Assembly (NCBI GenBank): GCA_026391835.1
Contig: JAPLDF010000055.1
Span: forward strand, 1-64,000
Source: Bacteroidota bacterium
Lineage (GTDB): Bacteria > Bacteroidota > Bacteroidia > Bacteroidales > FEN-979
Direction of reading: 5' to 3'
Length of the DNA stretch: 64,000 nucleotides
This document shows, piece by piece, positions 6,944 to 27,516 of the stretch (within the stretch, counting starts at the first letter, position 1; each line of letters begins with the position of its first letter). Under the pieces are notes generated by a model. That model was not told the origin of the DNA, did not search any database, and saw only the letters and a program-made list of their open reading frames with translations. The translations under genes and the position numbers were made by a program.

Positions 6944-7675
6944 TCAAAAGATCCTGTCGAGAACCGGTTTTACCAGGCCGGCCAGGTAAACGGTGAATGG
7001 CTTGATCACCCCGAACGAACTGATCGCCATAAATTTAAAGAACGGCCAGATGCCGGGATACCCGTAACAGATCAGGTAGAAGATCAGGCCATAGAAAAGG
7101 AAGGTGAACGCCACGATGGAAAGGAATGAGGCGATGTAGCCTGTTTTCCCGATGTCGGTCTTTCCGGTGTCTCCTTCAGCATCCTTAAAGTACCTGTTGC
7201 TCCAGTTCTCTTTGGTCTCTTTTGCAGTGCTCAGCAGATGATACATCATCGTAATCCCAAGGAAAATATCAAAATAAAAAAGGTATTTCTGTTCGGTGAC
7301 AGGCCTGAAAAACACTGCAACCAGCGTGAAAGTGGGCAGAAAGTAAGGAGCTGTCGTGATCATCAGGTCGCCGAACTTCCCTCCGAAACTTCCGGATTGG
7401 ACAATAAAGCCCCCGTGACGACCTGTAACGACAAACCGTTTTATCCGCCTTAAAAAGATAAGCGCCATCAGTGCATGTGTCAGTTCGTGGTCAAAGGTCG
7501 TAAACCAGTGCGTTTCCCGGAGGACCAGAAAGTAAAGCACCACTCCTGCGCCCATTCCGATGCCCAGCGGAACCCACAGGCTTTGCGAAGCCAGGATCAG
7601 GCTGAACCCGGTCCAGCAGGCGATGGCAGCCCCGGGGATTATGATCAATGACAGCAGGGAGAAGAGGAATTTCAT
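6944..7675 (-). CDS. Integral-membrane HExxH metallopeptidase (M50-like)
   Basis: The 243-residue protein has a signal-like first TM (residues 1-22), a second TM around 32-51, then HELTH at 63-67 placed at a membrane helix. Several more TMs follow. This layout is that of M50-type intramembrane or membrane-associated zinc peptidases, in which the two His and the Glu sit in a TM helix. The second metal-binding motif of site-2 proteases (NPDG type) is not obvious, so it may be a divergent M50B-like protein. It converges on the OB-like lipoprotein gene with 8 bp between stops. Confidence 0.62.
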   Translation of the reverse strand: MKFLFSLLSLIIIPGAAIACWTGFSLILASQSLWVPLGIGMGAGVVLYFLVLRETHWFTTFDHELTHALMALIFLRRIKRFVVTGRHGGFIVQSGSFGGKFGDLMITTAPYFLPTFTLVAVFFRPVTEQKYLFYFDIFLGITMMYHLLSTAKETKENWSNRYFKDAEGDTGKTDIGKTGYIASFLSIVAFTFLFYGLIFYLICYGYPGIWPFFKFMAISSFGVIKPFTVYLAGLVKPVLDRIF

Positions 7676-8096
7676 GGGTGGGGGTTGGGTAAGAAATTCT
7701 TTGTTTGACCGAATGGCTATATTGCAATCGCAATTGCTCTGACTTTAAGCAATCCTCAAAAATAGCAATTATAATGGTATTACTAAACCTGGGGCAAGTG
7801 TCCGGTGTCCGGCGGATTTATGTTTTTTACATTGCGATTAATTATAAGTATTGTATCTTCGTGGCTGTTAATGAAAGAACAGGTATGTTGTCCCTGTTCA
7901 AGGAGGCCGAGGTATGACACTGTGATTCCCTATGTGAAAAAAGTATTTGGCTTGTGTTTCCTGGTTAAACAAAGATAATCATGGGAGTTGGCAACATAGG
8001 AATGAGTGTATAACCGCTGAATATTCAGGGAGGTCTTAATATGTTGAAGTTTGGTAAAACAAACCGTCCAATGATAAAATAAAAGGATATTTGCAT
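7676..8096. other. Intergenic region and long 5' leader
   Basis: This is a 420-bp gap between the M50-like gene and livH. It holds one convincing promoter (7832-7861). The following leader of about 230 bases contains only tiny ORFs: ATG 7871 (35 codons), ATG 7981 and ATG 8041. None resembles a known protein. No terminator or known riboswitch was recognised. Confidence 0.5.
7832..7861 (+). promoter_or_regulatory. Putative promoter of the ABC-transporter/two-component operon
   Basis: TTG at 7832-7834, a 19-base spacer and TATCTTCG at 7854-7861 match the Bacteroidota promoter TTG-N19-TAnnTTTG with one mismatch. Initiation near 7868 would give a leader of about 230 bases before livH. The spacing between the eleven following genes never exceeds 33 bp, so this may drive the whole unit to 21568. 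Confidence 0.55.
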
Positions 8097-8966
8097 ATGT
8101 TTTTACAATTCATCATCAATGGATTGATCACGGGAATGCTATATACACTGGCTTCCCTGGGTTATGCACTGGTGTACAATACAACACGAATATTTCATCT
8201 GGCCCTTGCAGTCCTTTATGTTGTGGCTGCATATATTTTCTGGCATGTCACCGTTGTTTGTGGTTTTCCCATGTTTGCAGGAATTTTTGCAAGTGTATGT
8301 TTTACTGCATTATTGAGTCTGGCCATTGACAGGCTGGTCTATTTCCCGCTGTTTAAATTAAAAGCCTCCCTAAGTGTTGTGCTGGTGAGCTCTATCGGTG
8401 TTTTCACTGTGCTTACCAATCTCGTGGCACTGACCTGGGGCAATGAATTTAAAGCATTTGGCTCCGACATCAGCAGAATATATTCGTCTGGAAATCTTAT
8501 TGTTACAGGTAAGCAATTGTTTCAGTTTATTGCTTCCCTTGTACTGATAATAACTTTTTTTCTTTTTTTAAACCGATCGAAAACCGGCTTACGGATCAAG
8601 GCAGTACGGGACGATTCTGAGCTCTACCAGGTATTGGGTTTCAGCCTCACAAAAATGCGTGTAACAGTTTTTCTCCTGAGTGGAGCCATGATTTCCCTTG
8701 CCTCATGTTTGACGGCATGGGATATCGGCATGGATCCGTATGTCGGGATGCCTATCCTTCTGAATGCTATTGTAGCGTTGATTATAGGAGGCGCAGGACG
8801 GTTTGAATCATGCGTTATCGGAGGCATAACACTCGGCATCCTGCAGGCCCTGGTAGTTTGGCAGTGGTCGGCACAATGGCAGGAAGCAATAACCTTTGTT
8901 GTGCTAATCATTTTCCTTTTCTTGCGACCCCAGGGGTTTATCGGAGAAAAAAGCAGGGTTGTATGA
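8097..8966 (+). CDS. livH: Branched-chain-amino-acid-type ABC transporter permease LivH
   Basis: The 289-residue polytopic protein shows the LivH/BPD_transp_2 pattern. The N-terminus FINGLITGMLYTLASLGYAL is followed by a cytoplasmic coupling loop around residues 160-185 (SKTGLRIKAVRDDSELYQVLG). A late GRFESCVIGGITLGILQAL segment is also typical. With LivM it would form the inner-membrane channel of a HAAT-family importer for branched-chain amino acids, amides or urea-like solutes. ATG 8097 is preferred to TTG 8091 because AAAAGGA lies about 9 bases upstream. Family certain; substrate unknown. Confidence 0.88.
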   Translation: MFLQFIINGLITGMLYTLASLGYALVYNTTRIFHLALAVLYVVAAYIFWHVTVVCGFPMFAGIFASVCFTALLSLAIDRLVYFPLFKLKASLSVVLVSSIGVFTVLTNLVALTWGNEFKAFGSDISRIYSSGNLIVTGKQLFQFIASLVLIITFFLFLNRSKTGLRIKAVRDDSELYQVLGFSLTKMRVTVFLLSGAMISLASCLTAWDIGMDPYVGMPILLNAIVALIIGGAGRFESCVIGGITLGILQALVVWQWSAQWQEAITFVVLIIFLFLRPQGFIGEKSRVV

Positions 8967-8999
8967 CAAAATTGATACAATTATAAAATTCAAGCCGGA

Positions 9000-9872
9000 A
9001 TGGACTTTTTATACCATATCATCATTATGATCGGGATTTATACCATCCTGGCTCTGGCGGCAAACATTCCTGTTGGCCTTGCAAACTTATTGTCACTTGC
9101 CCAGGCAGCATTCTATGGTATCGGCGCATACCTGTCCGCATTTGTTTTACTTAATTTTAACATCCCTCTTCTTCCAGGGCTGTTTGTTGTTGCCATCACT
9201 ACCGGCTTTTTCAGTCTTCTTATCTCACTCGCTTCAATCCGGCTTAAAGGAGATTATTTTATTTTGGCAGCACTTGGGTTTCAACTTATTGTCTTTTCAG
9301 TTCTTTACAACTGGACAGATGTTACCAAAGGGCCTTACGGAATTTCCGGAATTCCACCACCAAGGCTCTTTGCATTCATTGAACTTACTGCCAATTTTCA
9401 GTTTGCAATACTTTCTGTCTCCCTAGCAGCGTTAACCTCTTTTCTTTTTTATTATCTGGTAAAATCACCCTTTGGAAGAGTATTGAAATCCATCCGGTCT
9501 GATGAGCTATCGGTGAGTATTTCGGGGAGAAATGTATACCAGTTTAAAATCATCGCTTTTTTCCTGTCTGCAGGTTTTTCTGCTTCAGCTGGCTTTCTTT
9601 TTGCAGGATATGTTAAGTATATTGATCCAACCAGTTTTACCTTGGACGAATCTATATTTATCCTTAGTGCATTATTTATCGGAGGTTTGGGGAATGTAAA
9701 AGGGTGCATTGTTGGTGCCGCCGTGATTGTAATTTTACCTGAACTGCTTAGGTTTGCAGGATTACCGGACAACATTGCTGCCAATCTCAGGCAGATCATT
9801 TATGGACTTGCGCTAATCCTGGTGATGCTGTATTTTCCCAAAGGACTGGCAGGTGATACGATGTTAAAATGA
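9000..9872 (+). CDS. livM: Branched-chain-amino-acid-type ABC transporter permease LivM
   Basis: The 290-residue membrane protein matches LivM. The N-terminal ALAANIPVGLANLLSLAQAA corresponds to the LivM NLLLGYAGQLSLGHAA motif. The coupling loop SPFGRVLKSIRSDELS and the late FIGGLGNVKGCIVGAA segment are diagnostic. It starts 33 bp after livH and is followed 6 bp later by livG. It would pair with LivH as the second transmembrane subunit. At 290 residues it is shorter than E. coli LivM (425) and lacks the extra N-terminal extension, as is usual outside the enterobacteria. Confidence 0.88.
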   Translation: MDFLYHIIIMIGIYTILALAANIPVGLANLLSLAQAAFYGIGAYLSAFVLLNFNIPLLPGLFVVAITTGFFSLLISLASIRLKGDYFILAALGFQLIVFSVLYNWTDVTKGPYGISGIPPPRLFAFIELTANFQFAILSVSLAALTSFLFYYLVKSPFGRVLKSIRSDELSVSISGRNVYQFKIIAFFLSAGFSASAGFLFAGYVKYIDPTSFTLDESIFILSALFIGGLGNVKGCIVGAAVIVILPELLRFAGLPDNIAANLRQIIYGLALILVMLYFPKGLAGDTMLK

Positions 9873-9878
9873 TAAAGA

Positions 9879-10676
9879 TTGGAAACAATTCTAAACATAT
9901 CGAACCTTAATCTCAGTTTTATTTCTGACAGGCAGAAAGAGGAGTCTCTTTTTCTTTTCAGGGACTTGTCACTTGAGATCGAGCGTGAAAAAATTACCGC
10001 ACTTGTCGGGGGGAATGGCGCAGGAAAAACAACATTGTTCAATGTTATTTCGGGTTTGCAAAGAGGCGCTTCCGGAAAAGTAAACTTTCAAGGAAGTGAA
10101 ATAACCAGGCTTTCTCCGTATAAAATTGCCAGGTTGGGAATCGGCCGGCTTTTCCAGGGTGCCAGGGTGTTTGAAGAATTGAGTATTTTAGACAATATGG
10201 TCATAGGTGCCATACACCATGCCAATGAAATTCCGTTTTATAATTTGTTGTTTTACAGGAAAAGCATGGCTTTTGAAAAGGGACTTGAAGAAAAAGCAGA
10301 AGCTATTTTATCTGAACTTTTTGGAAGTAACAACATTTTTTGGGAAGATCGTATCAAACCGGCCGGGAATCTCTCATTTGGTCATCAGAGGTTACTTGCC
10401 ATGGCAAGGTTGCTTATGGGTAATTATTCGTTATATTTGCTTGACGAACCAACTGCAGGCGTCCATGTACAGTTCATCGAACAGATTGCTTCAGCAATCC
10501 GGCACATGAACAGCCACAGTCATAAAACAGTCCTGTTGATTGAGCATAACATGCATTTTGTACGGCAAATGGCGGAATATTGTCTTTACATGGAAAATGG
10601 TAAAATCATTGCAAAAGGCCATCCGAATGATGTTTTGGCCAGTGATCAGGTGCAGCAATCATACATGGGAATCTAA
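9879..10676 (+). CDS. livG: ABC transporter ATP-binding protein LivG
   Basis: The 265-residue ATPase has Walker A GGNGAGKTT near residues 43-51 and a signature degenerate to LSFGHQR, as usual in LivG. Walker B LYLLDEPTAGV and switch His in LLIEHNM follow. The long insertion between Walker A and the signature (GAIHHANEIPFYN and after) is typical of LivG rather than LivF. The start appears to be TTG 9879; the ATG at 9869 is in another frame. Its stop overlaps the start of livF (TAATG). It energises the LivHM pore together with LivF. Confidence 0.87.
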   Translation: METILNISNLNLSFISDRQKEESLFLFRDLSLEIEREKITALVGGNGAGKTTLFNVISGLQRGASGKVNFQGSEITRLSPYKIARLGIGRLFQGARVFEELSILDNMVIGAIHHANEIPFYNLLFYRKSMAFEKGLEEKAEAILSELFGSNNIFWEDRIKPAGNLSFGHQRLLAMARLLMGNYSLYLLDEPTAGVHVQFIEQIASAIRHMNSHSHKTVLLIEHNMHFVRQMAEYCLYMENGKIIAKGHPNDVLASDQVQQSYMGI

Positions 10677-11392
10677 TGCTTAAACTCGAAAATATCCAGG
10701 GAGGATATACGCCCGGAAGCCTGGTACTGCAGGGTGTTGATCTTCAGGTTCAACAGGGGGAAGTGATCGGTATCATTGGATTAAACGGGTGTGGCAAATC
10801 CACGCTGGGCAAAGCTGTTTTGAATATGTTACCCTTCCGCACAGGGAAAATCTCCCTAAAAGGACGGGATGTTAGTCATTTGCCTGTTCATCACCTTCAT
10901 AATTTCGGCATCGGGATGGTTATGCAGGGAGGAATGATTTTTCCACATATGTCTGTATGGGAACATTTGCAGCTGGTTGGAAAAAGCAAGTCGGAAAAAG
11001 ATTTAAAGAAAAGAGTTTCAGAGATTGAAGAACAGTACGGATTAGTTATTTTCGCACCGGGAACGGCATTAAACAGGAAAGGAAGTTTCCTCAGCGGAGG
11101 TGAAAAGCAGCAACTTGCATTGATGATGGCCCTCCTGGACAACCCTGAATGGCTAATCCTTGATGAAGTGAGCGCAGGGCTTTCACCAGGAAATGTCTCA
11201 ATGGTTGCCGAACTAATCAAAGTGCTGAAAACGGAAGGCAAATTGGGTATTATACTCATGGAACAAAATATTAAATTGGCAGTGCAGTTGTCCGATCATC
11301 TCCTCCTGCTGGAGAGAGGAGTCATTGATAAACATTTTGTTGTTGACAAAGATTTCGACATCAACAACCTGAACGAAAACATATTTAATTAG
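10676..11392 (+). CDS. livF: ABC transporter ATP-binding protein LivF
   Basis: The 238-residue ATPase has Walker A GLNGCGKST near 35-43 and signature LSGGEKQQLALMMALL. Walker B is LILDEVSAGLSP, with Val in place of the usual Pro (DEPS), and H-loop Gln/Asn in ILMEQN as is normal in LivF. It overlaps livG by one base and is followed after 6 bp by the binding-protein gene. It forms the ATPase heterodimer with LivG. Confidence 0.87.
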   Translation: MLKLENIQGGYTPGSLVLQGVDLQVQQGEVIGIIGLNGCGKSTLGKAVLNMLPFRTGKISLKGRDVSHLPVHHLHNFGIGMVMQGGMIFPHMSVWEHLQLVGKSKSEKDLKKRVSEIEEQYGLVIFAPGTALNRKGSFLSGGEKQQLALMMALLDNPEWLILDEVSAGLSPGNVSMVAELIKVLKTEGKLGIILMEQNIKLAVQLSDHLLLLERGVIDKHFVVDKDFDINNLNENIFN

Positions 11393-11398
11393 CGAGCT

Positions 11399-12442
11399 AT
11401 GAATAAAAAAGTTGTTTACGGGATAGTTGCCGTTATTTTAATCATACTGGTAGGATTTGGAATCTACAGGCAGGTTAATACCGGGCAGGCAAACGAAGTT
11501 GTTAAAATTGGGGCGATATTGCCTTTAACAGGAGGTACCGCTACTGTTCCGGCCAATGATGCCAGGAATGGCATGTTGCTGGCAATCGAGTATATTAATG
11601 AGAATGGGGGCCTCAATGGAAAAAAGGTGGAACTTGTTGTTCAGGATTCCAAGAATGACAATAAAACAGGCCTTGATGCTTACAAATACATCGCTACAAC
11701 CGGAACCATCAGGTATTTCATAACCCAGATCAGCGGCGTCACCATGGCCATTAAAAACGAATCAAATTTGAAAAAGCAATATTTGATTTCCATGATCGGT
11801 GCAATACATTTTAAGGATGATTGCGAAACGTGCATCAGGAATTATATAGAACCGGATAAAATCGGGAAGGAAATCACTGTTATTATTGCTGACACCCTGA
11901 AACTTAAGACTTTTGCGGTAATTTACCCTGAAACGGAATACGGAAAAAGCATCTTCAGTTCGGTTGAACAGGAATCAAAATTGAAGGGCGCGACGATTTC
12001 CAGCAATGTCAGCTATGATGAGAAGACAATTGATTTTAAAAATATTGTAAGCAAGCTTTTAAGCAACAGGAGTTTTGAAGGTGTTTACATTACCGGCCTT
12101 GGAAAAAACATCGGGCAGCTCATCAAAGCATTTAAAGAATCTGGATACAAGGGGCAGATAGTCTGTGATCATTCATCTTCGATGTCTGACGTAAAACAAA
12201 TTGCCGGCAATTTGATGAAAGGAATTTATTATTTCAGTTTTCCGGATATCAATGAGGATTTTAACAGGGTTTTTAAAAACAGGTTTGGTTATGAACCTTC
12301 ATTTTATTCAGGACTGGCATATAATTCAATTAAATTCATTCTGAAAAATGAGAAGTCTGATTTGAAATTACCATTAATGTACGATACACTGAATATTGCA
12401 GGCCAGGAGTTTTTATATAATTTTAAAATAAAGAGATATTGA
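11399..12442 (+). CDS. Membrane-anchored LivK-like solute-binding protein
   Basis: The 347-residue protein has a single N-terminal TM (VVYGIVAVILIILVGFGIY, residues 5-23). The type I periplasmic-binding fold follows: VVKIGAILPLTGG, then ARNGMLLAIEYINENGGLNG, then KVELVVQDSKND. It supplies the receptor of the Liv transporter. No lipobox or clear signal-peptidase site is visible, so it seems to stay tethered to the inner membrane. A vicinal Cys pair (DDCETCIRN) lies near residue 140. Encoded directly upstream of a histidine-kinase cluster, it might also act as a sensor, which is inference. Its stop overlaps the next start (TGATG). Confidence 0.82.
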   Translation: MNKKVVYGIVAVILIILVGFGIYRQVNTGQANEVVKIGAILPLTGGTATVPANDARNGMLLAIEYINENGGLNGKKVELVVQDSKNDNKTGLDAYKYIATTGTIRYFITQISGVTMAIKNESNLKKQYLISMIGAIHFKDDCETCIRNYIEPDKIGKEITVIIADTLKLKTFAVIYPETEYGKSIFSSVEQESKLKGATISSNVSYDEKTIDFKNIVSKLLSNRSFEGVYITGLGKNIGQLIKAFKESGYKGQIVCDHSSSMSDVKQIAGNLMKGIYYFSFPDINEDFNRVFKNRFGYEPSFYSGLAYNSIKFILKNEKSDLKLPLMYDTLNIAGQEFLYNFKIKRY

Positions 12443-12840
12443 TGGATTTTATTGCCAAGTTGCAACTGCGATACAATGATTTTGATGGACAGAAAATAAT
12501 AAATAATGCTGTGATATTTTCATTGCTTGAGAATAGCCAGCTTTTATTTTTTGAACAATTGGTTGGCAGCAGGTGGGACTGGAGTTGTGTCCCATTGGTG
12601 CTAAGCAAGATAAATGTTGTTTTTGTAAAGCAAATCCAGTCAAAGGAACCTTTACACGGCAGGGTGCTTGTAAAAGAGGTTGAGGATTATTTTGTGGTTT
12701 TAAAAATATATTTGGAGTCTCCGCGATCTGAAGTTTATTCTATTGGAGAACTGAAGTTGGTCCATTATGATTTTACGAAACAAGAAAAGGTCATGTGGGA
12801 TGAGGCATTATATACTAATTTAAAAAAATATATTGAATAA
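12442..12840 (+). CDS. Hotdog-fold thioesterase-like protein
   Basis: This 132-residue product begins at ATG 12442, overlapping the previous stop by one base. The N-terminal LQLRYNDFDGQKIINNAVI has the layout of 4HBT/YbgC-type acyl-CoA thioesterases (RY.DTD..GHVNNA), including the presumptive catalytic Asp region. The His of the usual GHVNN is replaced (KIINN), so activity is uncertain. The rest gives alternating strands (VVFVKQIQSK, HGRVLVKEVE, YSIGELKLVHYD) as expected of a hotdog. Translational coupling to the binding protein puts it in the transporter operon. A role on acyl-CoA-linked substrates, or a non-catalytic binding role, is possible. Confidence 0.62.
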   Translation: MDFIAKLQLRYNDFDGQKIINNAVIFSLLENSQLLFFEQLVGSRWDWSCVPLVLSKINVVFVKQIQSKEPLHGRVLVKEVEDYFVVLKIYLESPRSEVYSIGELKLVHYDFTKQEKVMWDEALYTNLKKYIE

Positions 12841-12851
12841 TTTGAAAACCC

Positions 12852-15800
12852 ATGAATATATTAAATGAGGAAGAATTATATAAAGCCTTACGGGATAATG
12901 AAAAAAGATTTTGTCTCGAAGAGCTCATTGAAATATACTTGTCATCCATCAAGGAGTATTTCGAGAGGATTAATTCTCATTATATAATCTCTATTGCCAA
13001 ATATTCAAGAGAGAATAAGCTCAGGATTTCCGATTCATGGGAAACCAATGCTGATAAGGAGTATGGCTATGTCTCTTACTTTGACAAAGCAGTTGCCTAT
13101 GTGAACAAGTACAATGCTTTATCATTTACAAATTTGATCTATGATTGTGAAATAGATGTATTAAAACTTTATGTGAAAACCAATGGATTAATTGAATCAG
13201 AAACCAAACTAAGAAGAGTTAACATTGATGTATCAACCATTGTTCATATTATTGAAAACGAAATCAGTGTTCATACAAAGGAATTCAGTCCGGAAACCAT
13301 AAATACCATTTCAAGTCTTCCATCAATTATTGCTTGTACTGAAGAAATTATTAATGATCTTTCTTCATCTTATATACTTGAATCCCAAAAGGACATTATT
13401 GCAAAAATAAACAAGGAGAGCCTTGCCAGGATATTGTCTGTTTATGCCTATTTTTTTCATATCAATCAATCATCTATTGCAACTGCTTATTTCCTGAACT
13501 CACAAAACCTGCTGGCCAAGGATAAGTTATCACAGATATTAATTCTTCAACATCCGATTGACGAGGAACTGCCGAAAATTCTTTTAGGACTGAGAACAAT
13601 TATCCATGAAGGTGTATTTGAGCAATTGAAAAAAGCTCAGGTTAAATCCGCCAAGGCAGCAATAATGGCCAGAAACATCAGCCACAACCTGGGCAGCCAT
13701 GTGATGTATTATTTGAATTTGAAATTGAGCAGTGTAAACAGTATTTTAAAGGAAAATGTCCTTAAAGATCTTTTAAAGCACAGTTCGACAGGATTAACTT
13801 GTCAACTTTCAATTTCTGCGAATTTGCCTGACTGTTCACTGGTGAAGACGTTATCAACTCCCAATAAGGATTCGTTAAGTCTGCCGTTTCTGATCGGACT
13901 AGGCCGCTTTATAAATTATTTGCAGGAGCGCATGGATTATATCGCCACTATTTCAACAGATTATGTTCCATATTGCATGCCTGTTAATTTTAAGGATTCG
14001 ATTTACGATGAACTCAATTATGATTTAAAAATCGAACGGCACAAGGAATTTCAGGAATTTAAAAACAAAAAAGTTGAAAATCTACTGTTGGATTATATTG
14101 CAAGGTCTGAGGGGCTGAACCGGAATGATATAAGTTTGAATTTTGAGTTGTTTAACGGCAAAGAGAGGGAACATGAGGACTTGCAGAAGTTAAGAGATGT
14201 ACAGGTAGATTTGCCTGGCGGAGAAATAGGAAGACAGGCGTTTTTTAGCATTATTGAGAATATCATTCGCAATGCGGCGAAGCACAGTGGTGCATCTAAT
14301 TCGGTAAATGGGAAAAAACTTGTTTTTACAATCTCAACCGCTGAGTGTCCTGAGTTTTCCGACCTGATCAAAATTAGTATAACGGACAATATTCAGCACG
14401 ATAGCCAACTCTGTAAGCCAGGGGGAAAGATTCACAAAGCAAATGAAGAAGATTATGTAAATCAGTCAGGACAATTAAATGAATCGGGGAAAGGTATCAA
14501 AGAAATGCGAATTTCTGCTTCATGGTTGAGATGCATTTCGGATGAACGGGATGTAATTCCCAAAGTTTTGCAGCCTTCGATTAACATAGACGGGAATTTG
14601 GTTTTTGAGTTTTATTTACTGAAGCCACAACATGTCGCTGTTATCTGTAATCGGTTTGAGGAAATCTTCAAACAGCAGAAATTATTTGATGATACAGATG
14701 ATTTTGAATCGTTTTTTACCTCTTTAAATCAGGAACTTGGCAAGATTGGCTGGACTTTATACCGGTCAAAAGATTATATTAAAGCCGGTTCGAGGCATAA
14801 GATAGTGGCTATAGACACTAATATTGAAACAAAGGATTATACTCAGACGACTGCATATTGTCATAGCAGGGTAGTTCAATGGGATACCTCTCTAATTGAT
14901 CTTTCAAGGACCAATGGCATTGGCGATGAACTATACACCACAAACTTGTTTTCTCAATTATATAAAATGCATATTGAGAGTATCTTGAAAATTTCTGGGA
15001 GTTGTTTACAGCACATAGGTATTGATGACGAAAAAGTCCTTGGTAACCATCCAAAATGTACCGATGAATATGGCAAACACACTTTTGTAAAACCATATGG
15101 CATGGACGTTGATAGCAATAATGTCAGAACGAAAAACAGTGCCATATTCATAACAAAAGGTGAAATTACTGGAGATGATTTTAACATTATTTTCAAAAAG
15201 CACTTCCTTTCAGAACCCGGGGACAAAAATCTAATCACTGATGAATACCAGTTTATCGAAAGCATCACAGGACATAATTCCACAGATCGGTTAATACGCA
15301 ATGGGAAACTGGATAAAAATTGGTATTACCAGATGAATGAAGCAGCCCAGACGAGAATTGCGATTTTTGATGAGCGATTATGGGCTGATTTTTCAGGTGT
15401 TTCAAACGATGATATCGAAGATTATTTTTCGTCCTCGACTGATCAACAGGCTGATAAGGAATTTTCTGTTAAACTCGGATCTCATCTAGAAACATTTGTT
15501 ACAGGTGATGAATATAATGCTAAACCCTATGGTATTAAACTGAACGCTTTACATGAGTGTATTATTTCGTTTTTTGCATTGATGGGGGTCTCAGGAAAAT
15601 TTCAGTATGACGAGTTTAGTCGCCACTATGAAGACTTTGAAGAAAATAAGATTGATTTGGAATCCCTGATTAAAACCCTCTCAGCGTATGTTGCAAGTAA
15701 CCGACGCATGTCAATTCCTCTCTGCGCTGATGAAGAAAATACATTATTACTCGATAAGAAATTTGTCACCATTTTCAATGTTGTAAAATGTACAGATAAC

Positions 15801-16250
15801 AAATTTGCCATCATTAGACATGATTTTAACAGTGACTTGGCAAAAGATGATGTTAAAAATGAAACAAATCAGGTTGTAGGTTGGATTAAAAAAGACCAGG
15901 ATCAAAAAATAGTAATCGCATACAAGCCAAAAGGAAAGTATCATTTTATTTCAATTCACCAAGGAATTCTTGATAAAATATATGATTGTTTTGGTTTAAA
16001 ATCGCAGATAGAATCAAATAGTGAAGGGATGAATATGGTGACGGAAGAGTTCAGGCAAACCTTCTGTTATCTGTCGGGTGATCATAAAATCAATCAACTT
16101 GTTGTGCACTCAGGCAGGTCGAGGCCAGCTGAAGAAGATATGCCCCAAAAGGTTCCATTTGTTCAATTTTCTGCTATCAGTAACGCATTGAAGGATTGTA
16201 AATTTTCACTATCAGAAGTGTTTTATGCAGCAAGATATTCAAAGTATTGA
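12852..16250 (+). CDS. Giant histidine-kinase-like ATP-binding protein
   Basis: The 1132-residue soluble protein has about 260 unassigned helical residues, then a dimerisation-helix-like motif ARNISHNLGSHVMYY with candidate phospho-His at about 278. A GHKL ATPase domain follows, with N-box ENIIRNAAKHS near 469-479 and glycine box GKGIKEMR near 546. The last 550 residues match no domain I know; they include RIAIFDERLW and a terminal IHQG...VVHSGR segment. No TM, PAS or HAMP is present. It would autophosphorylate and pass phosphate to the receiver protein encoded at 17304, judging from the operon. Its last 26 bases overlap the next gene. Kinase activity is inferred; the ATP-binding fold is fairly clear. 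Confidence 0.75.
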   Translation: MNILNEEELYKALRDNEKRFCLEELIEIYLSSIKEYFERINSHYIISIAKYSRENKLRISDSWETNADKEYGYVSYFDKAVAYVNKYNALSFTNLIYDCEIDVLKLYVKTNGLIESETKLRRVNIDVSTIVHIIENEISVHTKEFSPETINTISSLPSIIACTEEIINDLSSSYILESQKDIIAKINKESLARILSVYAYFFHINQSSIATAYFLNSQNLLAKDKLSQILILQHPIDEELPKILLGLRTIIHEGVFEQLKKAQVKSAKAAIMARNISHNLGSHVMYYLNLKLSSVNSILKENVLKDLLKHSSTGLTCQLSISANLPDCSLVKTLSTPNKDSLSLPFLIGLGRFINYLQERMDYIATISTDYVPYCMPVNFKDSIYDELNYDLKIERHKEFQEFKNKKVENLLLDYIARSEGLNRNDISLNFELFNGKEREHEDLQKLRDVQVDLPGGEIGRQAFFSIIENIIRNAAKHSGASNSVNGKKLVFTISTAECPEFSDLIKISITDNIQHDSQLCKPGGKIHKANEEDYVNQSGQLNESGKGIKEMRISASWLRCISDERDVIPKVLQPSINIDGNLVFEFYLLKPQHVAVICNRFEEIFKQQKLFDDTDDFESFFTSLNQELGKIGWTLYRSKDYIKAGSRHKIVAIDTNIETKDYTQTTAYCHSRVVQWDTSLIDLSRTNGIGDELYTTNLFSQLYKMHIESILKISGSCLQHIGIDDEKVLGNHPKCTDEYGKHTFVKPYGMDVDSNNVRTKNSAIFITKGEITGDDFNIIFKKHFLSEPGDKNLITDEYQFIESITGHNSTDRLIRNGKLDKNWYYQMNEAAQTRIAIFDERLWADFSGVSNDDIEDYFSSSTDQQADKEFSVKLGSHLETFVTGDEYNAKPYGIKLNALHECIISFFALMGVSGKFQYDEFSRHYEDFEENKIDLESLIKTLSAYVASNRRMSIPLCADEENTLLLDKKFVTIFNVVKCTDNKFAIIRHDFNSDLAKDDVKNETNQVVGWIKKDQDQKIVIAYKPKGKYHFISIHQGILDKIYDCFGLKSQIESNSEGMNMVTEEFRQTFCYLSGDHKINQLVVHSGRSRPAEEDMPQKVPFVQFSAISNALKDCKFSLSEVFYAARYSKY

Positions 16251-17301
16251 ACAAACTGACGGTCAGGTAGACACTATAATCATTGTTACCACAGACTATT
16301 GGGATTATCAAAAACATCGATTGGAATTATTTAAAAATATGGAGGAAAAAGCAATTCCTTTTTGGCTTATTCCAATGACAATTCCTGAAATTTACTCAGA
16401 ACTGAGAACAAAACATTTGGTTACGATTCTTGAAAGTTCTGAGGAGAAGTTGAAAAATATTATCATTGCTTATTCTAAGAAAATTGAAAATAAAATAGCA
16501 ACGAAACAAAATTTTACAGATCTAAGTAATTTCAATAGGCAACTATATGATTCTGTATTCAAAGAAATAGATGAGAATTTTTGGGTAGAGAACAAAACGA
16601 ACCAGGAACTCTTTACGCAGTTTTTAACTATGAGGAAAATTAAAGATGCGAGGATCTTTATTTTGCCATCATTGCCAGATGAATATTTTACTGAACACAA
16701 ACTTAAGAAAAACTACCTTGAATTTCTGATTCAAGCTTGGAAATACACATTTAATAATCGTCAGGAGCCAAGCCACAACACACGTTTTATTTTTATTCTT
16801 CATGAAAAAGATTTGGGATTGGGAAAAGAATACAAGGAACATGTTATCAATCCAGAAGATTTCAAGATAAATCCATTTTTACTTGGTTATCAATATATTT
16901 CACAAAATATTTTTAATGGGCTTGGCAAGAATTATGAAATAATTGTTTTCCAGCACGACAGCATGAATAGTCCGAATATAAATCGTGATATTTTCGTCAA
17001 ATCCAGTCCAAATGAAAATCTGGTTGAACAGATTGAGCAGATTATATTGCTGCTAAAAATAAAATGGGGTGAATTATACAAATTAAGGAATGAAATATGC
17101 TTGCGATTGATTACAGGTGCAGAAATTACTGACCTGATAGATCTGATTAAAAGCAGAACTACAGAATTGGAACAATTAAAAAAAATTGCCCCGGATTCTG
17201 TAAATTTAATATTAAATTGTAACAGACAAACAGAAATAGCCGATTTGAAATATGCCTTTGACAGTGTTTTTACCAAAGCAAGTGTATCCTCAATCCTCTG
17301 A
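16225..17301 (+). CDS. Unknown protein in the kinase/receiver operon
   Basis: The 358-residue protein starts inside the end of the kinase gene (26-base overlap) and ends 2 bp before the receiver gene, so coupling is tight. The first strand VDTIIIVTTDYWDY and the following helix and IPFWLIPMT strand suggest an alpha/beta, perhaps receiver-like, N-terminus without recognisable phosphorylation residues. The C-terminal half is helical and Lys/Glu-rich (QIEQIILLLKIKWGELYKL). No TM or signal peptide is seen. An adaptor between kinase and receiver is plausible but unsupported beyond context. Confidence 0.6.
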   Translation: MQQDIQSIEQTDGQVDTIIIVTTDYWDYQKHRLELFKNMEEKAIPFWLIPMTIPEIYSELRTKHLVTILESSEEKLKNIIIAYSKKIENKIATKQNFTDLSNFNRQLYDSVFKEIDENFWVENKTNQELFTQFLTMRKIKDARIFILPSLPDEYFTEHKLKKNYLEFLIQAWKYTFNNRQEPSHNTRFIFILHEKDLGLGKEYKEHVINPEDFKINPFLLGYQYISQNIFNGLGKNYEIIVFQHDSMNSPNINRDIFVKSSPNENLVEQIEQIILLLKIKWGELYKLRNEICLRLITGAEITDLIDLIKSRTTELEQLKKIAPDSVNLILNCNRQTEIADLKYAFDSVFTKASVSSIL

Positions 17302-17303
17302 TA

Positions 17304-19271
17304 ATGAAAATCTCTCGATTTGATGGCACACAGATCGTACTTGATGATTATGGATCATGGAACGATTTACATATATCGCAGATACGTCCAGTAACAGAGA
17401 TAATTTCTTTCGATCTACATGTCATATATCTTGACTACATTAATAAGGCTTTGTTGGATGAGGTAATTAATTTGCGGGCCTTTCCTAAGGATTTCGAGGA
17501 TTACTCTCCTTTGCCAATTCTTTTTATTGGTTTTGAGGATTTGTTTTCGCAAAATAGTGATTCATTCAGAGAATCTAATTTTTTTAAGAAACTGAATATT
17601 CCTCTGTATTACCGGTTTCTTGATGATAGTATATGGAATAATTATTTGTATCTGTTTGATCCTTATTTTAAAGATAAGTTATTGTATACATTAAATAGAA
17701 TTGACAGTTTTCACAAACTCAAATTATATTCGTTGAATGTGACAAGGGAATACATTGAATATAATTCACGACTATGTAAAGAATCAAAATTGGTGAATTT
17801 AAAAGGACATGGAACGCATATAGCGCCATATCTCTTTCACTCAGAGAGTCATTTACATTCTAAAATCAAAATAAGTAAAGATATTTCATCATTATTTCCT
17901 GATTCGAAAAATGAATCAGCAGCTAAATCCAAAGGTATTTCATTACGAATCTTGCTAATTGACGATAAAATTGGGGGAGATGATTTTTGTAAGGCAGCCC
18001 TTGTAAAAAAAATGCTGGAATTCGACTGGATAACAGATTATCATGAACGATTTAATCACCGAGAAAATGTCTGTTGGAGAACTCCTGAAACAAATAAGGA
18101 TATCAAAAGTGAAATAACTGAAACCGACGTTATTATTATCACTAGTTATATAAAGTGTATCAAAATTGATAATGTAGAACATAATTTTAGAATATATAAG
18201 CCACGTTGTCATCCACATGATTACAATTTGACTGAATTATGTAAATATATTAAAGCTAATTCATCTGAAAAAATTCAAATAATCGCAATTAAAAATCTTG
18301 ATGAAGCAAGAGAACTTCTCTCTCACGAAGAAATTCGATTTGATCTGATATTGATGGATTATTTGTTAGATGAAATTTCTGAAAACAAAGTTTTTAGGAG
18401 GGAATATGCTACTGAATTCTGGGGTGATGGCAGAGAAAATTATTTCAATATTTCAAGATCGGAAATAAAGAAAATAAAGGATAGTAAGGATTATCCTGAT
18501 GCTGATATAGCAAACTATGAAAAAAAATTAGAAATTTATAACAAAATTAAAGCAAATCGGGGACCGTTGCAAAGGTTATGGATTTTTCCTATAACAGCAT
18601 TTAATCAGACATTTATCGATGATTTGCGTAATAAAGGCATCCGGTTAATCGATTACTATTGGTACTTAAGCCGTGGCGCGGATCCACTCAATACGCCTTA
18701 TTTATTTATTTATACACTGAATAAATTTCTTCAACTGCAAGTTGAGAACTCAATTTTCAGCCTTGACGATCTGTTGGGCTTTCTAAAAAAGTCGATAAAA
18801 AAAATTAAGGATTTGAATGACGCATTTCCAACTGAATATAATTTGAATACAAAAAGTAAATTAAAAAATTTATTTGGCTCTGAATATATTTTTTTTATCA
18901 CGAATTATGCATGTGAAGAGCAAATTGGAAGGGACAAGGCTCAGGGTAGTTTGTTCGCAAATTATATCGATGAAAATTTCTATCACCGGGCTGATGAAAA
19001 TAAGGATATAGCAAACCTCCTGAATCTTAATAAGGCGTTACGCCGAATATATTATCTGCTTGCTTATGGGGAGGATTATGAGATCACTCAGTGCATCGAA
19101 AACTGGTATAGGTTAAGAGATATATTAGCAATAATTATGCACTATATAAAGCAACATACATCTGGTGATCACCAAACATTTTCGATGATTTCCTTAACAG
19201 ACATTAGTGAAGTATATAAATCAATTACTTATAGGTTTTGGAATGGTGAACATTTGGGAAATCAGGATTGA
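17304..19271 (+). CDS. Protein with an internal response-regulator receiver domain
   Basis: The 655-residue protein has a central receiver domain. ISLRILLIDDKIGGDD near residues 212-227 gives the acidic pair, and FDLILMDYLLDE near 346-357 gives the probable phospho-acceptor Asp. A large insertion between them (about 130 residues instead of 40) contains a Cys/His-bearing stretch. The N-terminal 200 residues may hold a second, degenerate receiver-like fold (IISFDLHVIYLDY, LPILFIGFEDL). The C-terminal 300 residues are helical with no DNA-binding motif seen. It is likely the phosphorylation partner of the large kinase, with a non-transcriptional output. Confidence 0.68.
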   Translation: MKISRFDGTQIVLDDYGSWNDLHISQIRPVTEIISFDLHVIYLDYINKALLDEVINLRAFPKDFEDYSPLPILFIGFEDLFSQNSDSFRESNFFKKLNIPLYYRFLDDSIWNNYLYLFDPYFKDKLLYTLNRIDSFHKLKLYSLNVTREYIEYNSRLCKESKLVNLKGHGTHIAPYLFHSESHLHSKIKISKDISSLFPDSKNESAAKSKGISLRILLIDDKIGGDDFCKAALVKKMLEFDWITDYHERFNHRENVCWRTPETNKDIKSEITETDVIIITSYIKCIKIDNVEHNFRIYKPRCHPHDYNLTELCKYIKANSSEKIQIIAIKNLDEARELLSHEEIRFDLILMDYLLDEISENKVFRREYATEFWGDGRENYFNISRSEIKKIKDSKDYPDADIANYEKKLEIYNKIKANRGPLQRLWIFPITAFNQTFIDDLRNKGIRLIDYYWYLSRGADPLNTPYLFIYTLNKFLQLQVENSIFSLDDLLGFLKKSIKKIKDLNDAFPTEYNLNTKSKLKNLFGSEYIFFITNYACEEQIGRDKAQGSLFANYIDENFYHRADENKDIANLLNLNKALRRIYYLLAYGEDYEITQCIENWYRLRDILAIIMHYIKQHTSGDHQTFSMISLTDISEVYKSITYRFWNGEHLGNQD

Positions 19272-19962
19272 GGAATTAGAAATACCTGACGAACTACCTA
19301 AACTATCTCTTTTGCGAATAAAAATCTTTCAAGACCTGGACTATTACAGTTTTTTTATTCGTCTGGATGAACAAAGTCTAAACATAGAACCAGGTGAAAC
19401 TAGGCCTGTCAAAATCCCATATCAGGATCATCTCAATATTAATTTGCAAAATGAGGCGGACGCACAAATTGATATTTTGCGAAATAGTTCCAGTATAAAT
19501 CATTTATCTGCCGTGTTTTTAAATGGTTTAAGCCTGCAGTTATCCATTGAAAAAAAGTATTTGTATCACTTTTGGGAACAGCCAAAGATGAAAAATCACG
19601 ACGGGTGTTTGCAATTTTCCTCTCATCGTGAATTACTTAGCTTTCTCTTGCTTTTTTACATTGATGAAGTTTTATCTTTGATGTCGCCTTATGAGAACAA
19701 TCAGGGCATTCTTAAAAACTTTATGGACAGATTTACTAGTTCCTTTGTTGGAAATTTTCTGATCAAAAGAATGTTATATTACAAATACAGAGATTTCAAA
19801 GATTCCGATATTTCCAGAAAATCAGCTGAAGACTATTATTCGTTACTTTTAACAAACAAATTGGAGACCTACTATTCTCCAGATATCATCTCAGAAGGAA
19901 AATCATTTTGGTTTCCACATCCGGAAACTGAAATAATAAAACTTTTATATGAATTTGACTAA
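19243..19962 (+). CDS. Unknown soluble protein
   Basis: From ATG 19243 the product is 239 residues; an earlier in-frame ATG at 19207 would deepen the overlap with the receiver gene from 29 to 65 bases. The N-terminus MVNIWEIRIEELEIPDELPK leads into alternating strand-like segments (about residues 15-110). A helical, aromatic-rich C-terminal half follows. No motif, TM or signal peptide was recognised. It lies 7 bp before the membrane protein gene. Its role within the operon is unknown. Confidence 0.58.
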   Translation: MVNIWEIRIEELEIPDELPKLSLLRIKIFQDLDYYSFFIRLDEQSLNIEPGETRPVKIPYQDHLNINLQNEADAQIDILRNSSSINHLSAVFLNGLSLQLSIEKKYLYHFWEQPKMKNHDGCLQFSSHRELLSFLLLFYIDEVLSLMSPYENNQGILKNFMDRFTSSFVGNFLIKRMLYYKYRDFKDSDISRKSAEDYYSLLLTNKLETYYSPDIISEGKSFWFPHPETEIIKLLYEFD

Positions 19963-19969
19963 GTAGCTG

Positions 19970-21568
19970 ATGATAATAGATAAAAAGGAAGCTATCAAAT
20001 TGCTTCTCAAGCGTTATGATATTTTATCAACATGGAAGTTTGTCTTCAGGCCATTGTTGTATAGAGTTGCGATTCCGTTTATCTATTCGGTTACGACTAT
20101 TTATATTTTAATTTCAATTTTTGTATTTTCCAAAGGCAGTATTGTTGAATCTATTCTGGGACACTTTTATAAAAAGGTTGTGCTACTGAGTTTGTATTTT
20201 TTCTCTAATCATTCCATGGCATGTGTGTGGATATTGACTTTTATGATCTTATGCGGTTTTTTTATTAGAGATAACGTTTTTGATCTTAAAATTCAGAAAC
20301 AAAAAATAATTAAAAACCTTAAAGGTGAAATTTGGGCCATTAAAGAGGGCTATGGCCTGTTATTTATTGTGAAAAGCAGGCCAGGAGTCGCGCTGAAAAA
20401 ATTGTTGGGGTTACTCGTAATTTTTATCTTTCTTGGGTGCTTAACCTCCTGGCTTGTTTTTTTTTACATTATTATTGCTTTCTTTCTGGTCCTTATTTTT
20501 ATCAGGCGTGAATACTTTATCATTTCAGTTTTTTTACCCAGGATTATTATTTCAGTTACCTACTTATGGGCTACTTATATTTTAACAGAAGAGAATACAA
20601 GATTGTTTTATGCATTACCGGCCGGGACCTATTTATTTATTTTCCTCGTTTCATTATTTGGTACAATTATCTTTCTTTATTTTGAAGCAAAACAATATTC
20701 TCCATCGACTAATTGGGAAAATTTGTTGAAAAGAAGGGTACTCCCTGTATTTTCATTTACGGTTACCATTGCCATCGTGTTTGGTCTTATCGTGAATTCC
20801 TTATTAATCGATAAACGATCCAAACAAGCTCAGACAATACAACTGAACTTTTTGGCTGATTCACTGGCAATTAATTCAAAATTACAGGATTGTATCAAAA
20901 CATACTCTGAACATATTGAACGTATCAGGTCAGATTACCATAATTTACCAGTGATCCCACTTGAAACCAAATTGCAAAGCCTGACAAATTCAGGATTTTA
21001 TTCGAGAAGGTACAATTTTGGCATTGATATGTTATTAAATAAAGTTCAGTTTTGTTTATTATCCTTAAAGCTGGATTCGGCACTCTTAAAATCAACCGAT
21101 TCTGCATATTATAAAAGGACATATGAGAGCATTGGGAAATTTGGGTTGAGTCATTTATCAGTTGCCCGGCGATTCCAAAGGCAACTGCGACAACAGGATT
21201 CTATTTTCGAAATGAACCAGGTACGCCTTGAATCGTTGATAACCAGTTTAACCGAATTAGCCGATAGAATTGTTGCGATTTATTCAATGCGAAAGGCCCG
21301 ATATGATGACATTGATCATCTTTATGACAGTGAATCAGGCTATGTTTTTTTTAAGGGAAAGAAATGCGATACTATTGAATTAAACAGGTTGGTTAATTGT
21401 AATAAGGATGATGTTTTATATACCCAATTTCCCATCTCGGTCTATTCAAATTCTGAAAAGAATACGATTAACCTAAAAAGTTTCTTAATTCAGGTAGCCA
21501 TTGCCATTGCATTAGGTGTTATTGGTCAGCTAATCATATCAGATAAAACTGCAACTGAAGCATTGTAA
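19970..21568 (+). CDS. Polytopic membrane protein, last gene of the operon
   Basis: The 532-residue protein has hydrophobic segments around 27-54 and 68-98, several between 140 and 205, then about 215-240 and 262-285. A soluble region of some 220 residues follows, with heptad-like Leu/Asp repeats, then a final TM (IQVAIAIALGVIGQLII). The soluble part has pairs of helices (LADSLAINSKLQDCIKTYSE, RRFQRQLRQQDSIF) that could form a coiled-coil bundle. No transporter or enzyme motif was found. It could be the membrane output or receptor of the kinase-receiver pair encoded upstream; that is inference. Confidence 0.62.
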   Translation: MIIDKKEAIKLLLKRYDILSTWKFVFRPLLYRVAIPFIYSVTTIYILISIFVFSKGSIVESILGHFYKKVVLLSLYFFSNHSMACVWILTFMILCGFFIRDNVFDLKIQKQKIIKNLKGEIWAIKEGYGLLFIVKSRPGVALKKLLGLLVIFIFLGCLTSWLVFFYIIIAFFLVLIFIRREYFIISVFLPRIIISVTYLWATYILTEENTRLFYALPAGTYLFIFLVSLFGTIIFLYFEAKQYSPSTNWENLLKRRVLPVFSFTVTIAIVFGLIVNSLLIDKRSKQAQTIQLNFLADSLAINSKLQDCIKTYSEHIERIRSDYHNLPVIPLETKLQSLTNSGFYSRRYNFGIDMLLNKVQFCLLSLKLDSALLKSTDSAYYKRTYESIGKFGLSHLSVARRFQRQLRQQDSIFEMNQVRLESLITSLTELADRIVAIYSMRKARYDDIDHLYDSESGYVFFKGKKCDTIELNRLVNCNKDDVLYTQFPISVYSNSEKNTINLKSFLIQVAIAIALGVIGQLIISDKTATEAL

Positions 21569-21569
21569 A

Positions 21570-21631
21570 GATCACCCAGGGATTAGTTATCACTATAGTT
21601 TTATGGGATGATCAGTAAGTTCCCTTTTTTG
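21570..21631 (+). terminator. Weak terminator candidate after the operon
   Basis: GATCACCCA at 21570-21578 can pair with TGGGATGATC at 21604-21613 with one bulged base and a long loop. A T-run follows at about 21625-21630. It lies between convergent operons where a terminator is expected, but the large loop makes it weak. Confidence 0.25.
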
Positions 21632-21661
21632 CCCGTTAAGAACTTGTGACCAGAATGGTTA

Positions 21662-27504: not shown

Positions 27505-27516
27505 GTAAAATAGCGT

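Follow-up and report, generated by a model that had tools for sequence, protein, structure and literature searches.

A giant kinase-like protein encoded in one operon-like run with a Liv-type importer: this locus and its relatives as candidate import-linked sensing modules

In autoinducer-2 uptake by the Lsr system (LsrACDB, LsrK, LsrR), a sugar-type importer is combined with an enzyme (a small-molecule kinase), a repressor and a response to the imported signal. To our knowledge, Lsr has neither a giant histidine kinase nor TIR or STAND outputs. In BceRS-BceAB and PstSCAB-PhoU-PhoBR, the state of a transporter or its substrate controls a kinase and a receiver, and the kinases are membrane sensors. 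Certain conflict systems are reportedly built from a fixed core (MoxR-vWA, GTPases or proteases) and diverse, sometimes inactive, domains. Kaur et al. 2020 describe PBP domains in system 4 of such conflict systems and receiver domains among the effectors (PMC7159879); the terms “ABC transporter” and “branched-chain” do not occur in the main text of that article. No description of the arrangement reported here was found among the titles and abstract openings listed in searches of open-licence PMC text.

The DNA that we analysed, called the window below, is a stretch of 64,000 nucleotides from a Bacteroidota bacterium (contig JAPLDF010000055.1). Its + strand carries, from 8097 to 21568, eleven genes in the same direction (Table 1), with intergenic spacings of -29 to +33 bp. 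A preliminary description had listed eleven co-directional genes no more than 33 bp apart, and all of its coordinates and the strand were verified. With the preferred starts, the spacing is 33 bp for LivH-LivM, 6 bp for LivM-LivG, -1 bp for LivG-LivF, 6 bp for LivF-SBP, -1 bp for SBP-hotdog (hotdog ATG at 12442) and 11 bp for hotdog-kinase; the remaining junctions are -26 bp (kinase-U1), 2 bp (U1-receiver), -29 bp (receiver-U2, with the U2 ATG at 19243) and 7 bp (U2-membrane protein). The same description called the importer and the kinase “fused”, which is wrong: each is encoded by genes of its own, and these follow one another in a single operon-like run. It had also named a transcription start and terminator between 12442 and 12852 as evidence against coupling; the sequence does not speak against it in this way, as the junction consists of one overlap and one gap of 11 bp. 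More broadly, there is no terminator-like site on the + strand from 10408 to 20980, and the hotdog/kinase junction is too tight for a terminator plus a promoter. Upstream of LivH, at 7832..7861 (+), is a match to a weak pattern that we take to be of the Bacteroidota promoter type; because the pattern has eight further + strand matches within 8097-21568, assigning a promoter here is a guess. Rfam gave no match at gathering thresholds in 7000-22500. The GC content is 34% after LivF, as compared with 42% for the Liv genes and 44% for the whole window, and the composition of the operon region appears island-like.

Table 1. Genes of the operon-like run, with coordinates in the window and the basis of each assignment.
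Feature	Coordinates	Strand	Basis
LivH-type permease	8097..8966	+	ATG 8097, in-frame TTG 8091; BPD_transp_2 E 1.3e-34; 52% to L006 LivH
LivM-type permease	9000..9872	+	BPD_transp_2 E 3.5e-38; 55% to L006 LivM; tree
LivG-type ATPase	9879..10676	+	TTG start; ABC_tran E 1.7e-28; motifs read by eye
LivF-type ATPase	10676..11392	+	ABC_tran E 2.5e-28; motifs read by eye
Peripla_BP_6 binding protein (SBP)	11399..12442	+	E 7.1e-34; N-terminal hydrophobic segment 5-23
Hotdog (4HBT_2-like) protein, exchangeable enzyme slot	12442..12840	+	4HBT_2 E 0.0032, below cut-off
Giant histidine-kinase-like protein	12852..16250	+	1132 residues; H-box, N-box; no membrane segment
U1	16225..17301	+	Position only; smaller L006 gene at same place
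Receiver-like protein	17304..19271	+	BLAST vs L006 gene; motif reading; weak hhalign; no hydrophobic segment
U2	19243..19962	+	ATG 19243, GTG 19207 possible; L006 gene at same place
Polytopic membrane protein, last gene	19970..21568	+	7 hydrophobic segments; no Pfam match above cut-off

Judged by its sequence families, the importer appears to be complete and of the amino-acid type. The components that define a Liv/HAAT importer are present, namely two BPD_transp_2 permeases, two ABC ATPases with Walker and signature motifs, and a Peripla_BP_6 protein. All five score far above the Pfam cut-offs and the SBP has a single N-terminal hydrophobic segment (membrane segments are based on a simple hydropathy scan), which bears out the earlier assignment of LivHMGF with an anchored binding protein. 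LivG has the Walker A sequence GGNGAGKTT, an off-consensus signature (LSFGHQ) and LLDEP, and LivF has GLNGCGKST, the signature LSGGE and the Walker B sequence LILDE. Relatives of the SBP in the PDB are amino-acid-binding structures (best 3ip5, E 2.4e-12). The NCBIfam Liv models, scanned against the importer proteins other than LivF, match LivH, LivM, LivG and the SBP far below their curated cut-offs.

The protein earlier labelled as hotdog is similar to 4HBT_2 but does not reach the Pfam cut-off (E about 0.003), and a phmmer search gave no match for it in the PDB. The slot that it occupies, between the SBP and the kinase, holds a B12-radical SAM protein in a related locus, L006. Across loci, this slot is filled by hotdog, B12-radical SAM, radical SAM, methyltransferase, PALP or SDR proteins, by a decarboxylase with class II tRNA-synthetase-like and GNAT proteins, or by a prenyl-synthase-like protein. 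Most of these enzymes keep their catalytic motifs. Some are apparently dead (the PALP and SDR of L089 and the prenyl synthase of L046), and this fits a decoy or sensor role better than that of a synthase. For three of eleven sister-type loci (L090, L092 and L093), no enzyme was recognised among the proteins scanned.

The kinase-like protein has an H-box at 277-284 (SHNLGSHV), an N-box at 469-478 (ENIIRNAAKH), a degenerate G1 box and a conserved C-terminal region (IHQG...HSGRSRP). The earlier label, “kinase-like ATPase”, agrees with the H-box and N-box, but the family and structure searches do not back it: HATPase_c is not matched at the Pfam curated cut-off, and the kinase profile has no match in the PDB. 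A relative in L046 comes close to the HATPase_c cut-off (24.9 versus 26.4 bits). With hhalign, the N-box of the window protein falls in register with that of the L046 relative at E 0.00024 (probability 44%) and with that of ordinary kinases at E 0.002 (probability 13%), both matches being weak. The BLAST match to the L006 kinase is clear (E 3e-23). A single-sequence AlphaFold model of the kinase core is unusable (mean pLDDT 32). Searches with the kinase found it in 2 of 393 genomes of the order and in one of the 43 genomes of the family, and each copy adjoins the transporter; occurrence of the kinase half always without the transporter, the other finding that had been held to speak against coupling, is the reverse of what these searches showed. 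Five genomes picked as carriers have no second copy by kinase profile. The sole kinase match in a scan of genome contigs, L005, is a chance one, located in what its genes indicate is a type II secretion/pilus-like region. No relatives were found in viral contigs with the kinase and receiver profiles, or in plasmids with the window kinase, the window receiver and the L085 kinase.

The receiver-like protein is assigned mainly by its motifs (DD 220-221, D352 and T431, with Arg457 in place of the Lys of receivers) and by its BLAST matches to the L006 gene (E 1e-19 and 2e-12). An hhalign comparison with the L085 protein gave a weak match at the strand of the acceptor Asp (E 0.033, probability 1.6%), and none was obtained with the L082 regulator. 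The label “receiver” from the preliminary description agrees with the motif reading and with the Response_reg proteins of related operons, but neither the Pfam receiver families nor, by profile, the PDB gave a match; no DNA-binding domain was recognised in the window protein. Given the degenerate G1 box of the kinase and the Arg that replaces Lys in the receiver, catalysis by these proteins may have been lost. A 39-residue match to the receiver in G248 was judged to be chance; the ORF that holds it is 1107 aa long and is not accompanied by Liv genes. U1 is 24% identical to its L006 counterpart in a MAFFT alignment, with no BLAST match, and hhalign against an L082 gene gave nothing usable. U2 likewise has no significant BLAST match to its L006 counterpart, so that the likeness is one of position. 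The last gene was confirmed as polytopic by the hydropathy scan. No effector domain was recognised in the output proteins of the window.

The order of the operon is beyond chance, and recurs in independent genomes. In L006 (genome G368, from another family), the order is LivH-M-G-F-SBP-enzyme-kinase-unknown-receiver-unknown, as in the window, and LivH and LivM are 52-55% identical. In a LivM tree, the window falls within a group of 12 (SH-aLRT 97), nine of which can be judged for a kinase, as L042, L043 and L088 stop at contig ends. Giant kinases related by BLAST are present in six of the nine (the window, L006, L044, L082, L085 and L089). Of the other three, L046 has the HATPase_c match below cut-off, L013 has a motif seen by eye only, and L041 has no kinase that we could see; scripted kinase box patterns matched neither L013 nor L046. 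L041 keeps the importer, and its lack of a visible kinase counts against the explanation that we favour below. L013 is on a conjugative plasmid of Nostoc carneum, and a search of plasmids with two of its cargo proteins returned nothing beyond the Nostoc record itself. In the kinase-type runs, the cargo lies 3' of the SBP gene, mostly with gaps of <30 bp. Response_reg is found within the run at the Pfam level only in L044, L046, L085 and L089, and L082 has no Pfam receiver after its kinase. The receiver proteins of L085 and L089 have HEPN-like RX4H ends (DUF4145 E 0.0016 in L085).

A sister group of 10 (SH-aLRT 100) has a different layout, LivG-F ... SBP ... LivH-M, with the cargo in between and all five importer genes kept. 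Its cargo includes RelA/SpoT (L048 and L093), TIR (L095 by Pfam; L093 by eye), GGDEF (L092) and STAND-like proteins (L094 and L096), and in five of eleven sister-type loci the output protein was not recognised. The idea of an “orphan permease receptor”, i.e., a sister type without LivG/LivF, was ruled out: LivG-LivF lie upstream in all nine loci that could be extended (L102, L103 and L105-L111; G747:C169 ends first, and G155 was left out of the count). In a third group, an AbiEi-AbiEii pair precedes LivH in L084 (by Pfam) and in L086 (by position and size). In G578 (L114), a 124-aa LivH fragment stands before the AbiE pair, and so this pair may be an insertion rather than cargo. The Pfam scan covered cargo of loci other than L103, L107, L109, L114 and L115. 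Neighbours of the modules include defence genes (SIR2, type I restriction and DNA methyltransferase). As a control, 17 ordinary Liv or Urt loci were hand-picked (low-identity matches plus a urea locus), and 91 of their 99 neighbours were scanned, leaving out eight of the Variovorax locus L015 (an annotated record). These yielded two HATPase_c and two GGDEF proteins; radical SAM, TIR, RelA_SpoT and Response_reg do not figure in the top 25 by frequency out of 146 families, a tally that does not extend to single-member families.

We tentatively favour import-coupled small-molecule sensing with an exchangeable enzyme and output as the best reading of these loci. The Liv/HAAT-type importer and SBP would form an input that is conserved. 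The middle, at least one small-molecule enzyme, and the output, a protein of signalling or immunity, would both be exchangeable. In the window, the anchored SBP would capture an amino-acid-like or acyl/prenyl-derived molecule and LivHMGF would import it; the giant kinase-like protein might then sense the imported molecule or the state of the transporter, and donate phosphate, by way of the His in its H-box, to the receiver-like protein at Asp352; U2 and the membrane protein would be the partners of the receiver-like protein. The molecule might be made, trimmed or degraded by the hotdog enzyme, giving each module a private signal, and the result could be a population-level or an invader-triggered response. 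The preliminary description had suggested transporter-gated signalling or a sensing/defence module; the comparative data agree with this in direction. The related operons suggest that such modules, tied to import and serving in sensing or immunity, form a family that has not been described. A bolder version, which seems to us doubtful, is that private-signal modules are widespread among Bacteroidota, green sulfur bacteria and cyanobacteria, each with its own enzyme and diffusible molecule, a dedicated SBP and importer, and a response that can be swapped (kinase relay, TIR, RelA/SpoT, STAND or GGDEF), and that they are carried on plasmids and defence islands and serve as a cell-to-cell alarm or kin-recognition immunity.

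The more conventional view is that the operon takes up an ordinary nutrient and has a two-component control of its own, with the enzyme processing the nutrient and the kinase and receiver tuning expression to supply. The importer, complete with ATPase motifs, and the SBP, closest to amino-acid-binding structures, would suit such a role. We nevertheless think it unlikely: the enzyme varies between most loci, proteins of the TIR, RelA/SpoT, STAND-like or GGDEF kind occur at some of the sister loci, the window receiver has no recognised DNA-binding domain, and a kinase that is AT-rich and present in 1 of 43 family genomes is unlike a housekeeping nutrient system. Abortive-type immunity would account for the TIR, STAND-like, RelA/SpoT and AbiEii proteins of related operons and for some neighbouring defence genes. 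Here, a change in envelope or transport caused by an invader would be read via SBP-LivHMGF and relayed to a cytosolic output, and the enzyme-like protein would be a guarded decoy. The catalytic residues missing from some enzymes and the HEPN-like ends of the L085 and L089 receiver proteins also speak for immunity. Against this, most enzymes seem intact, the window outputs have no recognised effector domain, and PADLOC gave no match for seven of the eight window proteins scanned (those other than LivM, LivF and the SBP), the eighth, LivG, matching 75 generic ABC/AAA models; immunity of this kind is improbable in our judgement. It is very unlikely that a mobile island has brought together an importer and a kinase cassette that have nothing to do with each other. 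The island-like composition, the conjugative plasmid of Nostoc and the L041 importer without a kinase all point that way, but the common order, the overlapping or nearly overlapping genes, and a single LivM group that spans genomes of several families do not.

If import-coupled sensing is right, a family of importers for which amino acid uptake is the usual annotation has come to serve a modular system of sensing or immunity as its input. This would explain a set of giant kinase-like and receiver-like orphans that no Pfam family matches, supply candidates for new signals in bacteria that can be put to the test, and tie small-molecule communication to TIR, STAND and RelA effectors. Even with another role, the annotation “branched-chain amino acid transport” would mislead for such Liv operons.

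Among known systems, E. coli LIV-I (LivJ/K-LivHMGF, HAAT) shares its five kinds of component with the window by Pfam similarity. The window differs from LIV-I in that its NCBIfam scores are far under the curated cut-offs and its importer is tied to exchangeable enzyme and signalling cargo. Pfam shows no MoxR-vWA, GTPase or protease cascade core in the window proteins. Compared with BceRS-BceAB and PstSCAB-PhoU-PhoBR, the window has an exchangeable enzyme and a 1132-residue kinase-like protein without a membrane segment or Pfam match. The likeness of the module to Lsr is in the way of working.

All eleven genes of the window's operon lie where the preliminary description had placed them, and the tight spacing it claimed is borne out by intergenic distances of -29 to +33 bp. 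The five importer genes are unambiguous by Pfam. None of the six non-importer genes is above a Pfam cut-off or found in NCBIfam, and PADLOC gave nothing for them up to E 0.1. Of the 4HBT motif, the hotdog protein retains the Asp pair and lacks the Gly-His that follows it. The junction at 12442-12852 is as tight as described: the genes overlap at 12439-12442 and are then separated by 11 bp at 12841-12851. A terminator was looked for there, and none of the forward-strand terminator-like sites within 7400-21900 (starts at 7800, 8316, 8319, 9778, 10395 and 20980) begins in it; on both strands, 10 such sites were found and 10.1 expected. Sigma-70-like sites (82 vs 52 in shuffles, including no fewer than three weak forward-strand sites inside 12442-12852) are uninformative because the DNA is AT-rich. 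GC content is 34% downstream of LivF, 42% in the Liv genes and 44% in the window. The reverse-strand genes directly after the operon (see the table) are possibly another uncharacterised system; the 1245-aa and 685-aa proteins have no Pfam family above the cut-off.

The same operon is found on a single contig of a second genome (G368, locus L006), in the order LivH-LivM-LivG-LivF-binding protein-B12-binding radical SAM-kinase-unknown-receiver-unknown, with the radical SAM protein in the window's hotdog position and the last gene cut by the contig end. BLASTP identities between the two are 52% for LivH, 55% for LivM, 42% for LivG, 44% for LivF, 29% for the binding protein, 25% for the kinase (E 3e-23) and 28-30% for the receiver (E 1e-19, 2e-12), with no significant match for the two unknowns, U1 and U2. 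The kinase is present in one of 43 family genomes (the window's own) and 2 of 393 order genomes, and the receiver protein was matched in 3 of the 393, once by a chance-like 39-residue match. A two-row receiver profile matched 1/395 phylum genomes and 1/7 genomes of G368's family, which are lower bounds because it missed divergent loci found later. In five genomes selected as kinase carriers, a kinase profile detected the operon copy only. The window's genome has a single LivHM pair, the operon's own, plus one other BPD_transp_2 protein and one sub-threshold match. Its LivH was matched in 17 of 384 order genomes, and the G368 LivM in 76 of 378 phylum genomes; among the latter a gap separates the 17 loci at 45-55% identity (13 genomes, E at most 4e-72) from the remainder (best 35%, E 8e-42). 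The one Azospirillum LivH/LivM match inspected is surrounded by fatty-acid-type genes.

A LivM tree with 47 rows, drawn by a quick method and supported by SH-aLRT values alone, distinguishes three groups; its long branches, L049, L050 and L015 among them, are unsure. Nine loci labelled kinase-type, joined by L041, L042 and L043, form one group of 12 (SH-aLRT 97), the 10 sister-type rows another (100), and L083, L084, L086 and L087 a third (99); a joint clade of the three is without support. The labels come from gene content and the tree from LivM alone, so that their agreement is not built in; L088, however, owes its label to a fused LivG-F and a methyltransferase, and its contig stops before any kinase.

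Three of the 12 kinase-type rows (L042, L043, L088) stop at a contig end, and six of the other nine (the window, L006, L044, L082, L085 and L089) encode giant kinase-like proteins that BLAST shows to be related. In L046 the kinase-like protein is smaller (HATPase_c 24.9 bits vs a cut-off of 26.4), and in L013, a Nostoc plasmid locus, the evidence is a motif seen by eye; scripted kinase-box patterns found nothing in either. In L041 no kinase was seen, and the binding protein is followed by a TonB-receptor-like gene and the contig end; we infer from the adjoining TonB-dependent-receptor-like protein that the host is probably one of the Bacteroidota. The H-box ARNxSHNxGSHV is common to the window, L006 (as SRN), L085 and L089, with variants HNVAAH in L044 and HNMGAH in L082. 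Invariant columns of a six-row alignment, in which L089 is represented by its second frame and so lacks the H-box, include N279, E469, N470, R473, N474, G548, I1035 and H1036. The two L089 frames are either two genes or a frameshift. Response_reg (E <0.01) occurs in the cargo, or non-importer genes, of four loci (L044, as a fusion with the decarboxylase-like protein, and L046, L085 and L089), and was found neither downstream of the L082 kinase nor in window or L006 cargo. The RX4H endings of the L085 and L089 receivers are HEPN-like, which would mean an RNase output; the L085 protein also matches DUF4145 (E 0.0016). LivH was not seen as an intact ORF in L082. The L044 cargo listed in the table looks like a lysine-derived small-molecule pathway.

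Features of the window and of related Liv loci
Locus	Position	Strand	Feature
Window	21662-31047	-	Three large convergent genes: 1245 aa (metallopeptidase-like HEMGH stretch), 685 aa, 1176 aa (starts with nucleotide-binding-like GLGGIGSE)
Window	37437-40112	+	892-residue protein, receiver-like start (by eye), apart from operon
L044	12722-17179		Ornithine/lysine-decarboxylase-like protein (receiver-like N-terminal part), class II lysyl-type tRNA-synthetase-like protein, GNAT, all inside Liv operon
L082	16357-17040		Ordinary LuxR-type response regulator (Response_reg + GerE), upstream of LivM
L083	14437-16201		Interval (~1.6-1.8 kb) with short ORFs separating LivH from LivM
L084	2509-4100		As L083; similar-looking 125-aa protein in both intervals
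L084	1-2509		AbiEi + AbiEii (toxin-antitoxin) directly before LivH
L114 (genome of L084)	5791-6162		124-aa LivH fragment preceding AbiE pair
L086	1799-6627		Two proteins of AbiE-like size and place before LivH (position and size only)
L085	14081-15919		Receiver protein ending in RNTVAH
L089	13579-15363		Receiver protein ending in RNEASH
L089	9392-12968		Giant kinase in two overlapping frames, H-box in first, N-box in second
L045			Sister cargo: EgtD-like methyltransferase
L047			Sister cargo: prenyl synthase, M28 peptidase (not in tree; contig ends before LivM)
L048			Sister cargo: RelA/SpoT, hotdog
L090			Sister cargo: unknowns
L091			Sister cargo: methyltransferase
L092			Sister cargo: GGDEF
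L093			Sister cargo: RelA/SpoT, protein with TIR-like start (by eye) and weak P-loop matches
L094			Sister cargo: class II tRNA-synthetase-like; DUF4062-NPHP3_N STAND-like protein after LivM
L095			Sister cargo: radical SAM, TIR
L096			Sister cargo: radical SAM, methyltransferase; 2162-residue NACHT/STAND-like protein after LivM
L097			Sister cargo: B12-radical SAM

Sister-type loci have all five importer genes wherever the contig extends far enough, with LivG-LivF first, LivH-LivM last, and the binding protein and cargo in between. The cargo is mostly downstream of the binding protein, except in L095, where it comes before; L090 and L096 have part of it between LivH and LivM, and at L097 and L090 some also precedes the binding protein. 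In the scanned part of the cargo, a recognised enzyme is present in 8/11 loci and a recognised output in 6/11, two of the six after LivM. In the third group, radical SAM proteins are encoded at L083 and L087, gaps in L086 are at most 5 bp through LivF, and the AbiE pair at L084 may be an insertion, because a LivH fragment lies before it.

The cargo enzymes were judged by catalytic motifs. The radical SAM CxxxCxxC is found in L006, L049, L082, L087, L096 and L097, and L044 has cysteines spaced CX6CX2C (the cut L083 and L095 proteins were left out). Six methyltransferases have glycine motifs (one by eye), the decarboxylase has SVHK, the L085 PALP its lysine and the L047 prenyl synthase its aspartates. 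The L089 PALP is without its lysine, the L089 SDR without YxxxK and the L046 prenyl synthase without DDxxD.

The constant part of these loci is an importer, complete and carrying ATPase motifs, together with a binding protein; the variable part is a small-molecule enzyme and, where recognised, a signal-to-response protein. Since neither the kinase nor the receiver protein of the window has a hydrophobic segment, a molecule from outside must get to them via the importer or contact with it, and for this reason we prefer import-coupled sensing, in which the cargo enzyme would make or adjust the sensed molecule. What speaks most strongly against a functional synthase and phosphorelay at every locus is the degenerate G1 box of the kinase, the receiver Arg and the dead-looking enzymes of some loci. 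The outputs recognised in sister loci belong to immunity and stress, and some loci have defence genes nearby or are plasmid-borne, so that a role in immunity or alarm is a plausible candidate. Genes picked by eye beyond the operons include a DEAD/DEAH helicase (L097), a SIR2 family protein (L107), a type I restriction subunit (L109) and a DNA methyltransferase (L106). The best plasmid match for LivH and LivM (36% and 39%) comes from Nostoc carneum NIES-2107, on a conjugative plasmid whose operon has the order LivH, LivM, fused LivG-F, binding protein, a 975-residue protein (methyltransferase-like start, N-box-like motif near the end, by eye) and, after two unknowns, a receiver-like protein (Response_reg E 0.014).

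For ordinary Liv/Urt loci, an operon run was obtained at 18 of 20 controls, each with all or some of the SBP-H-M-G-F series and 0 to 6 other genes. The Pfam scan covered 91 of 99 neighbour proteins from 17 control loci; two bacteriochlorophyllide hydratase matches among the 91 suggest that the heavily sampled genus g266 belongs to the green sulfur bacteria. Radical SAM, TIR, RelA_SpoT and Response_reg are not among the 25 commonest of 146 control-neighbour families, a listing that excludes single-member families, and the neighbours of these ordinary importers include SDR (3), HATPase_c (2), HisKA (2) and GGDEF (2).
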